Assembly: GCA_021234155.1 (NCBI GenBank)
Contig: JAJEKV010000386.1
Coordinates: 117,931 to 181,930 of the forward strand
Reading direction: 5' to 3'
DNA from: Isoetes taiwanensis
Lineage: Eukaryota; Streptophyta; Lycopodiopsida; Isoetales; Isoetaceae
Length of the DNA stretch: 64,000 bases
The position numbers and the translations under genes are program-made. Each line of letters begins with the position of its first letter. The stretch's first letter is position 1. The notes beneath the pieces were generated by a model, which saw nothing but the letters and a program-made list of their open reading frames with translations, did no database searches and was not told the DNA's origin. Below, piece by piece: positions 49,187-51,030 of this stretch.

Positions 49187-49630
49187 AGACTGAGACCCCT
49201 ACAGTCAAGCGACGGCGGAAGTCCACCGCCCACAAGTCGGGAAGTGCATACAAGGAGAAGCTCAAAACCATTGGGGGTATTGGGAAGTCGACAAACTCTG
49301 CCCGCCGGCAAGACTGAGTGGATGTAGCCTGGCCTCCCCCGGTATAGGCCTGACACCATAGCCGTAAGGGAGATTCGAAAGTACCAGAAGACGATCGAGC
49401 TTCTGCTGCAGAAGCTCCATTTCCAGTGCCTGGTTTGAGAAATAGCACAAGCCTTCCAGACCGATCTGCGGTTCTAGACTTTTGTTATGCTTGCACTTCA
49501 GGAGGCCGCCGAAGATTACTTGGTAGCCCTTTTTGGGGATGCCAACCTTTGTGCCACCCATGCCAAAAGGGTCACCATTATGACCAAGGATCTAGCTCTT
49601 GCCCAAAGGATTTGAGGAGATCACAATTAG
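49187..49630 (+). pseudogene. Histone H3-like module 1 of the LTR element
   Basis: From 49340 one frame carries an H3 core without length changes: RYRPDTIAVREIRKYQKTIE, LLLQKLHFQCLV, EIAQAFQTDLRF, MLALQEAAEDYLVALFGDAN, LCATHAKRVTIMTKDLALAQ and RI. It has three internal stops at conserved codons: TGA 49436-49438 (Arg), TAG 49475-49477 (Gln) and TGA 49613-49615 (Arg). Upstream, in another frame (49201 on), is a basic tail with VKRRRKSTAHKSG, reminiscent of the ARKSTGGK tail motif of H3. Loop 1 has canonical H3 length, unlike the longer loop of CENH3. The 3' end is followed 213 bp later by the second ORF. Confidence 0.8.
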
Positions 49631-49842
49631 CTTGCTTGTCAAGCATCTCTCTTGTACAAATTTTACATGTAAATATAAGAAAATTTTGACTGTCTAAATT
49701 CTTTTATGAAAATAAAGTAATCAATTAATTATTATTAAGACTGATGCTGACATCAACATAAAAAGCTAAAGATAAAGTACACCTAATAGCCTTGAGGGTT
49801 TTATTTTTTCTTGCTCCTCTTGTTTCCTTCCTCCTCCTCCAA

Positions 49843-50617
49843 ATGGCGACCCCAAACCTCCTTCAATGGTACCAAGACGGAGAACATTGGGATCCTCAAG
49901 TCACATTTGACCTCCTGCATCCCTTTCTACTCCAAAGGGTGGACCTTATCACCAACATGCAGGCCCACCCTGATTACGCGGCTTTTCTTGAGTTCTATAC
50001 TCAAGAGATGCTCCCTCTCTGTATTCCCCTAGGGGATCCTCCCCAACTCTACCTAAAGAGAGTTATTGTGAGGGAGATGTGAGGGGACGACTCTCATGCC
50101 CATGATGTTCTCAGGGGGAAGTTCAGATGGGGCAGAAACACGCCCGTCTTGATGCATGAGGGTCAGCAGTACCTTGAGGTGACTTTCGCGCTGGCCATAC
50201 TCATGGATCAGTATACAGAAGAAGAAACTTTGCCAGCAGAGAAGGGCAAAGCACCCGAACCCTCTGACGACGAGGACGACGAGCACATCGGAGAGGATCA
50301 CTTCTTCTGGTGGAGGCAATTAGCAGAGCAGATACCTTTACATTGAGACCAGGGGGCACGACTCACTGGTCTGGATGCCCTCTCGGTTATCCATCACCAA
50401 GGTCAAGAATACCTCCTACTGGAAGATATTATGTGGACCTACCACGTAGTTGTTGACCTTAAGAAGAAAGCGCATGTGCTTTATGAGCTCGCAGAGTACT
50501 TCATGGACGACTTTATCGACTACACCGGTTGAGCTCCCTACAGAAGTGCAGTAATTACTCCAGTTCCATCAGGAGACTATCGAGCTGGCTGACACACTCC
50601 TCAAGCTGAGAGATCTT
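49843..50617 (+). pseudogene. Second ORF, copy 1 (MATPNLL family)
   Basis: Starts ATG 49843: MATPNLLQWYQDGEHW, then FDLLHPFLLQRVDLI, DYAAFLEFYTQEM and a TGA at 50080-50082 where copy 2 has TTG. The frame then shifts; 50149-50346 carries QQYLEVTFALAILMDQY and an acidic linker (PEPSDDEDDE). Further pieces reach ELADTLLKLRDLMLQD, which runs into H3 module 2. The family is unknown to me. The upstream 5' flank is CT-rich, as in copy 2. Confidence 0.5.
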
Positions 50618-51030
50618 ATGCTCCAAGACTCCCCGTCTCAGCCTCGCCCGATAACAGGGGGCAAGACCCTGTCCAAAAAGCCGATGCAGCCTCAAAAACC
50701 AGCGCAGCCAAAGAAGCTGCATCGGTATAGGCCTGGCACCATAGCCTTAAGGGAGATTCGAAAGTACCAGAAGACGACTGAGCTTCTACTACTAAAGCTC
50801 CATTTCCAGCGCCTGGTTTGAGAAATAGCACAAGCCTTCCAGACCAATCTGCAGTTCCAGACTTTTGCTATGCTTGCGCTTCAGGAGGCCGGCGAAGATT
50901 ACTTGGTAGCCCTTTTTGGGGATGCCAACCTTTGTGCCATCCATGCCAAAAGGTCACCATTATGACCAAGGATCTAGCTTTCGCCCGAAGGATTTTGGGG
51001 AGATCACAAATAGCTTGCTTGTCAAGCATC
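50618..51030 (+). pseudogene. Histone H3-like module 2, fused to the second ORF
   Basis: An open frame from 50618 (MLQDSPSQPRPITGG) continues through a lysine/proline-rich tail (KKPMQPQKPAQPKKLH) into RYRPGTIALREIRKYQKTTE, LLLLKLHFQRLV, a TGA at 50819-50821 (the same Arg codon as in module 1), EIAQAFQTNLQFQTFAMLAL, QEAGEDYLVALFGDANLCAI and HAKR. A one-base loss near 50951 shifts the rest (VTIMTKDLAFARRI) to another frame. The PKKLHRYRPG join resembles H3 VKKPHRYRPG. The shared TGA shows the two modules come from one duplication. Confidence 0.85.

Follow-up and report, generated by a model that had tools for sequence, protein, structure and literature searches.

INTRODUCTION

Plant transposons are held down largely by methylation of histone H3 at lysine 9 (H3K9) and by DNA methylation. 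Here we describe a group of Ty3/gypsy retrotransposons from the lycophyte Isoetes taiwanensis that encode a histone H3 of their own, starting from a stretch of 64,000 nucleotides (contig JAJEKV010000386.1 of assembly GCA_021234155.1, positions 117,931 to 181,930 of the forward strand; hereafter the window) that holds two decayed insertions. Their closest described relatives are the chromoviruses, with which they share long terminal repeats (LTRs), the primer-binding site (PBS) TGGTATCAGAGC, the series gag, protease, reverse transcriptase (RT), RNase H and integrase, and, in one copy, a chromodomain; they differ in having two extra open reading frames (ORFs) upstream of gag, the first of which (ORF1) ends in histone H3. 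In intact relatives of the window insertions, the H3 part of ORF1 was kept under purifying selection. The ORF1-H3 protein is predicted to form pairs with host H4 and, on a judgement somewhat better than even, would replace H3 in chromatin.

Several other systems offer partial parallels. Extra ORFs are reported for most Ogre/Tat/Athila (OTA) elements (PMC6317226), which are non-chromoviruses, whereas the window's family has a chromodomain. A plant element with an additional ORF in which a host-type domain has become fixed is described from orchids, where Ty3/gypsy elements carry an AlkB-type N6-methyladenosine (m6A) demethylase, although this is an RNA enzyme rather than a histone (PMC9289625). 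The same work screened the LTR retrotransposons of 121 angiosperm genomes, a coverage that lies outside the lycophytes, for extra domains and reports 15, including the AlkB-type demethylase; its results section mentions no histone domain. A Gypsy element with a Tudor domain is described from Ectocarpus (PMC12477816). Multiplication of H3 to many copies by a mobile element is described for hAT transposons of the fungi Pyrenophora tritici-repentis and Pseudocercospora fijiensis, but these are DNA transposons, and the H3 of P. fijiensis is mostly truncated and inactivated by repeat-induced point mutation (RIP), that of P. tritici-repentis being potentially active (PMC6710886). Finally, a review of viral histones covers bracovirus H4, xenomavirus H3 and giant-virus histones, all of them parasite-encoded core histones with an altered, lengthened N-terminal tail that are thought to enter host nucleosomes; their carriers are DNA viruses, and neither retrotransposon nor retrovirus occurs in the review's main text (PMC9145170). 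No retrotransposon-encoded histone was found in the open-licence PMC literature searched, which does not establish its absence elsewhere.

RESULTS

Histone H3 is a regular part of dispersed element families

The genome searched was that of the window itself (1,658,258,908 bases in 1,110 pieces). The H3 and downstream stretch of the insertion on the plus strand of the window (element A) gave 926 first-look candidates, and all 40 that were scored matched, two of them being the window's own and 38 lying elsewhere at 76-88% identity. Twenty of the best 22 matches, chosen by H3 and with the window copies making up the remaining two, were fetched; H3 is followed by ORF2 in all 20, and gag, protease and RT follow in order in 12, 10 and 8 of them, respectively (tblastn). 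Sixteen of the 20 have both the LTR stretch and the PBS, the latter with no more than one mismatch, upstream of H3. A second sample was chosen by ORF2, not H3 (40 scored of 970 candidates): 24 of these places, including both window copies, lie beside a match from the H3 list, and among the other 16 there are 10 with H3 directly upstream (tblastn) and six without. H3 is thus found directly upstream of ORF2 in 34 of 40 ORF2-picked copies, the window's two included. In the six H3-less copies the family alignment breaks off upstream of ORF2, at a point that varies between copies; one of them retains the last bit of H3, and the sequences further upstream are mutually unmatched. For the family of the minus-strand insertion of the window (family B), 40 of 262 candidates were scored, one being the window's own; the core is present in all 16 copies fetched, which were selected by similarity to an H3-bearing stretch, at 31-70% identity over the matched pieces, and the ORF2 start lies within the short stretch fetched in five of the 16. 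The order of the element is LTR, PBS, ORF1 (N-terminal domain, charged helix, basic tail and H3), ORF2, gag, protease and RT.

The initial annotation had raised the prospect of an LTR retrotransposon lineage that encodes H3, and H3 does prove to be a regular part of dispersed, multi-copy families. It had also named the outcome that would speak for a one-off capture of a processed H3 mRNA, namely other copies without H3 and an H3 nearly identical to that of the host; when this was examined, the copies were found to carry H3, and the intact cores are identical to host H3 at 82-85 of 97 residues. A one-off processed H3 pseudogene is rejected, as the H3 is common to other element copies, is under constraint and is not near-identical to host H3.

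A probe taken from the LTR upstream of an intact ORF1 gave 6,469 first-look candidates, of which 40 were scored. When these 40 places were set against 50 element-type H3 matches out of the 135 described below, seven had H3 1.58-1.69 kb downstream and six had H3 7.2-9.0 kb upstream. At one locus (C1038), a pair of LTRs 10.4 kb apart encloses an H3 match, whose frame is 139 amino acids long within an ORF1 that is not full length. The two LTRs differ by 37 mismatches and 22 gap positions over 1,628 alignment columns. By eye, each begins with TGTGA and ends with CACA, the PBS lies one base after the 5' LTR, the 3' LTR is preceded by a run of purines, and the insertion is flanked on either side by GCAAA, a 5-bp target duplication. 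The LTRs of a further copy (L026) are 8.6% apart over 1,021 columns. The H3-bearing element accordingly has an LTR pair, a PBS beside the 5' LTR and a target-site duplication, and is an LTR retrotransposon.

Intact copies encode H3 as the C-terminal part of a long ORF1

A search of the genome with canonical H3 gave 9,022 first-look candidates. The best 150 by score, which are not a random sample, comprised 15 host H3 genes (96-98% identity over the whole protein) and 135 element-type matches (71-86%), the latter being assigned by identity and by the lack of the first residues, with element context confirmed for those copies that were fetched or lie beside an LTR match. Within the match, 129 of the 135 are stop-free, and 49 of the 135 stand in stop-free frames of 400 amino acids or more. 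Eight such frames were fetched and read unaltered; from the first methionine they encode 409, 409, 421, 412, 409, 425, 413 and 421 amino acids, each ending in TAG. They share one layout: an N-terminal domain of ~210 residues is followed by a charged helix and a basic tail, and the protein ends with the H3 core. The same layout is found in single natural frames of the window's own decayed family, one copy (L014) running from the N-terminal domain into the basic tail and another (L017) from the basic tail into H3.

The Pfam Histone family matched the C-terminus in all four intact ORF1 proteins scanned (E 5e-39 to 2e-41), and the N-terminal part of these four matched no Pfam family above cut-off. 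PF00125 was likewise found in all six element H3 frames scanned, with histone H3.3 (7ux9_E) as the best PDB match (E 3e-47). Two checks that had been proposed at the outset, a profile search against the histone fold and a search for intact copies, thus both gave positive answers, and the picture of H3 as a free module ahead of gag gives way to one in which it is the C-terminal part of a protein of 409-425 amino acids.

In public protein sequences, 78 residues of the ORF1 tail from L017 gave nothing at E <= 0.01 (5 candidates), and H3 gave 1,921 matches, among the best 120 of which all are named as histones or unnamed, with no retroelement among the names. When viral contigs were scanned with an intact ORF1, one locus was returned, at which the H3 part alone matched. 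This IMG/VR contig (L072, 379-1449) holds an ORF of 356 amino acids that by eye resembles several fused histone folds ending in H3, with a short H4-like ORF on the opposite strand, and it probably represents the histone set of a giant virus.

Purifying selection acted on the element H3

The ratio of nonsynonymous to synonymous substitution (dN/dS) was computed for seven of the 28 possible pairs of the eight intact ORF1 sequences. In the H3 core, the five deep pairs gave dS of 0.70-1.07, dN of 0.026-0.049 and ratios of 0.03-0.06; the ratio was 0.06 in one of the two closer pairs, and the other showed zero amino-acid change. The coil and tail of ORF1 gave ratios of 0.16-0.33. In the N-terminal domain dS was saturated and dN was 0.15-0.29 in the deep pairs, and the closer pairs gave ratios of 0.17 and 0.07.

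A second comparison drew on 32 decayed copies (fetched sets of 20 and 10, and the two of the window) and set variants present in one copy, which should be mostly post-insertion, against those present in four or more, leaving out variants in two or three. In H3 the singletons are 160 nonsynonymous to 38 synonymous and fall evenly on the three codon positions (69/72/57), and the shared variants are 30 to 69 and fall mostly on the third position (23/11/65), a difference with a Fisher p of 4e-17 (4e-8 for transversions alone). ORF2 behaves similarly (121:29 versus 21:46, p 4e-12; transversions p 0.004), and protease, with 10 copies and few shared sites, gave 92:51 versus 1:7 (p 0.005; transversions not significant). 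From this contrast and the low dN/dS, we conclude that H3 was under constraint during the active life of the elements, to about the same degree as ORF2, and that no other part of ORF1 was as constrained.

The core keeps the presumed nucleosomal contact residues and the tail lacks lysine 9

The eight intact cores align without gaps with the H3 of a host gene (L069); their high identity to it, set against synonymous differences at saturation, indicates an old capture. All eight differ from the host at positions 86 (T), 87 (F), 89 (I), 102 (A), 105, 107 (A), 124 (L), 125 (A) and 135. Residues 86-89 read TFAI in all eight (L061-L068) and SSAV in host H3; this segment presumably adjoins the site read by histone chaperones. 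Absent from the difference lists of the eight cores are R40, R42, T45, R49, R63, K64, R69, R72, R83, K115 and T118, which we take to be DNA contacts, and C110, H113, D123, L126 and R129, which we take to form the H3-H3 four-helix bundle. With the G-G-K14 motif as anchor for the tail, P stands in place of K9 in all eight intact proteins and V or A in place of S10; phmmer aligns the tail of L017 in the same way, and older copies with a readable motif have P or S at position 9.

For the elements, the tree drew on family A cores of at least 80 residues and family B cores of at least 70, without the window copies and with stops read as X; its 38 element cores all fall in one clade, separate from the H3s of the host and others (support 0.747), and family B is supported at 1.0. 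The element H3s are thus compatible with one acquisition, judging from this topology. CENH3 has a divergent fold with a longer loop 1, and a CENH3-like module was rejected in view of the ungapped, canonical core of the element H3. Derivation from H3.3 is not claimed either, for although the best PDB match is an H3.3 and the element H3 has L90 and, in some copies, Y41, both residues are shared by the host H3 gene L069.

A chromodomain in one copy places the window's family among the chromoviruses

Pfam matches in copies of the window's family comprise gag in L011, RNase H and an integrase-type SH3 domain in L014, and SH3 in L026; RT in L014 fell below the curated cut-off. The C-terminus of the L014 integrase (8835-9695) carries a Chromo domain (PF00385, E 2e-8), and the second C-terminal piece scanned, from L026, gave no Chromo match in a frame that ends early. 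The domains gag, protease, RT, RNase H and integrase follow one another in Ty3/gypsy order, the window copy being truncated in RT, and by the integrase of one copy the family is a chromovirus with two extra ORFs. Membership in OTA is rejected, since L014 carries a chromodomain. The initial annotation had pictured H3 as standing in for the chromodomain; given PF00385 in L014, H3 is there in addition to it. The H3-bearing family, as represented by L014, therefore has both a histone reader and a histone.

Anatomy of the two window insertions

Element A is a decayed Ty3/gypsy insertion at ~49.2-55.9 kb on the plus strand, with its H3 core upstream of ORF2 and gag after ORF2. A remnant of the ORF1 basic tail, whose frame reads TVKRRRKSTAHKSGSAYKEKLKTIGGIGK, occupies 49187-49339 and matches sequence upstream of H3 in 16 of the 20 fetched family copies (blastn). 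Canonical H3 then matches 49340-49624 at 67% identity over amino acids 41-135 (tblastn, E 2e-38), and a second tail and core lie at 50645-51000, with a match at 50645-50971 (61% identity over amino acids 9-123, E 1e-34) that continues at 50947-51000 in another frame. With host H3 as the query, these two cores score 134 and 123 bits; because the best score among 200 base shuffles of 48900-52100 was 22.7, the window matches are far above chance, and the presence of two H3-like cores on one strand ahead of gag, as initially annotated, was confirmed. Both cores are broken by in-frame stops, of which the second has one, together with a frameshift near 50970. A TGA after FQCLV or FQRLV is common to the two, and since the same codon is a stop in three further copies (L013, L015 and L019), it may be a mutational hot spot.

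Each core lies in one half of a single tandem duplication (49340-50643 and 50723-52006, 89.6% identical). The second core had been described as fused in frame behind another retroelement ORF; the in-frame join to the end of the first ORF2 copy is indeed there, but it is the junction of the duplication. The first copy of ORF2 (MATPNLLQWYQDG..) is broken and spans 49843-50640, and the second, from MATPNLL to FFLSAFQQGHVLFVARDLAPEAESSWW, spans 51243-52345. A search of 5.8 billion public proteins with ORF2 found one relative at E <= 0.01, a protein of 471 amino acids (P0121) on a metagenome contig of 2,953 bases, with 39% identity over 90% of the query from the first copy, no Pfam match and, by eye, the same order of pieces as the second. 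ORF2 of one family copy likewise had no Pfam match, and ORF2 (49843-50640 and 51243-52345) stands as a conserved protein of unknown kind. Its identification as gag was rejected: it is a separate, extra ORF2 without a Pfam match in the family copy, and a broken gag (RKLAQFSGKTRSGVDAESWLDEMHEF..) with a CCHC knuckle (CYRCFRPGHRMQDCP) starts near 53.6 kb (53631-54400), its counterpart in L011 matching PF03732 (E 2e-12). There follow a protease region as an ORF at 54622-54927 (same order in 10 of the 20 family copies), the start of RT at 55043-55213 with the remainder missing (in order in 8 of 20), and part of the 3' LTR at 55213-55936, which is 80-91% identical to the stretch upstream of H3 in 16 of the 20 family copies and 65% identical to 39737-39157 on the minus strand.

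That stretch belongs to element B, a second decayed Ty3/gypsy insertion at ~39.7-35.5 kb on the minus strand, in which an H3 core likewise lies upstream of ORF2. Its 5' LTR end (39157-39737, 65% nucleotide identity to 55320-55937) stops directly before an exact PBS, TGGTATCAGAGC (39145-39156), which is the sole one in the window with up to one mismatch allowed and which we take to be of the initiator methionine tRNA (tRNA-iMet) type. Downstream, as read from the frames, lies a broken and charged segment, presumed to be the N-terminal part of ORF1 (38014-38617), and then the frameshifted ORF1 tail and H3 (37548-38014). This third core (37805-37567) is more diverged, with 51% identity over amino acids 91-135 (tblastn, E 1e-12). 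ORF2 is represented by its start (MASISFNKWYNDANH..) at 36719-36877, 25% identical over 56 amino acids to that of element A (E 5e-5 for the pair), and by a later ORF piece (..LRYYLPALNQGHIVVFHKEFSPRGEEP) at 35543-35848 that resembles 52160-52345 by eye. Because their LTRs are 65% and their ORF2 starts 25% identical, elements A and B are long-separate insertions with H3 at the same place.

Elsewhere in the window, ORFs at 48738-49073, just upstream of element A, and 57829-58700, both on the minus strand, resemble by eye RT fragments of the long interspersed nuclear element (LINE) type. Large direct repeats, spaced ~7.4 kb apart and 94-98% identical over alignments of up to 16.6 kb, occupy 88-23863, and a repeat of 4.8 kb is found at 24072-28840 and 28770-33536 (96.7% identical).

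DISCUSSION

The reading that we favour, at somewhat better than even, is that ORF1-H3 enters host chromatin. Pairing with host H4 is predicted, and ORF1-H3 would likely be deposited into host nucleosomes in place of H3, carrying its N-terminal domain along. Lacking lysine 9, its tail would have no place for the usual silencing mark, and nucleosomes built with it would be poor substrates for this main mark of plant silencing; the benefit to the element may be resistance to H3K9 methylation, a landing mark for its own integration machinery, or both. Entry into chromatin with H4, together with such a load, fits best because the contact residues are fixed, the tail is rewritten and an N-terminal domain has been added. 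A bolder form, which we put forward only tentatively, is that the retrotransposon makes its own nucleosomal histone, with ORF1-H3 replacing host H3 on the chromatin of the element or of its target so that nucleosomes without K9 escape heterochromatin.

Several observations weigh against the favoured reading. AlphaFold models were of low confidence, with a mean predicted local distance difference test score (pLDDT) of 49 for one intact ORF1 and 51 for one H3 frame, and because these models are poor the histone fold of ORF1 rests on sequence. The extension of ~310 residues on H3 could hinder deposition. Lysines are kept at the positions of K14 (in all eight proteins) and K37, so a tail that cannot be marked holds for K9-S10 only, and the position of K27 cannot be safely aligned. 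The H3 core was undetected in six of the 40 ORF2-picked copies, the clade that suggests a single origin has modest support (0.75), and the chromodomain, RNase H and integrase were observed in the window's family, as distinct from the families with intact ORF1.

Among the other explanations, it is possible, if doubtful, that ORF1-H3 is a tether or landing mark in chromatin that guides integration and is perhaps read by the chromodomain of the integrase. L014, a copy of the window's family, carries a chromodomain, and the type I chromodomains of plant elements are described as having an aromatic cage that binds methylated H3K9 (PMC6317226), but the ORF1 tail lacks K9, the classical ligand, and the chromodomain, of whatever type, would need another contact. 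A role in the virus-like particle or on the cDNA, where ORF1-H3 would condense nucleic acid or help assembly and never meet host nucleosomes, is unlikely; its position upstream of gag and its long charged helix and basic tail would suit such a role, but the residues that we take to contact DNA and a second H3 are kept, which simple condensing does not demand, and no H4-like partner was noticed among the ORFs read. Less probable still is a decoy, in which free ORF1-H3 would soak up H4, histone chaperones or methyltransferases and weaken silencing from outside chromatin: the changes common to the eight cores do include 86, 87 and 89, beside a site read by chaperones, and 102, 105 and 107, yet a decoy has no need of fully conserved DNA-contacting residues. 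That H3 is a functionless passenger, captured by chance and spread by the element, is hardly credible, for although the window copies are dead and the H3 pieces carried by hAT elements of P. fijiensis are described as truncated or inactivated passengers (PMC6710886), dN/dS is 0.03-0.06 across subfamilies, singleton and shared variants differ at p 4e-17, and 49 of the 135 element-type matches stand in long stop-free frames.

Given an H3 lineage that is old enough for synonymous saturation, strongly selected and devoid of K9, our results suggest that chromatin components can be supplied by the elements themselves. The element would likely use its H3 to act on host chromatin. Such an element offers a concrete example of a contest fought over chromatin, and its histone would be to retroelements what the viral histones are to viruses. 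If it does make its own nucleosomal histone, it would be a genomic parasite that writes its own chromatin rather than only reading that of its host.
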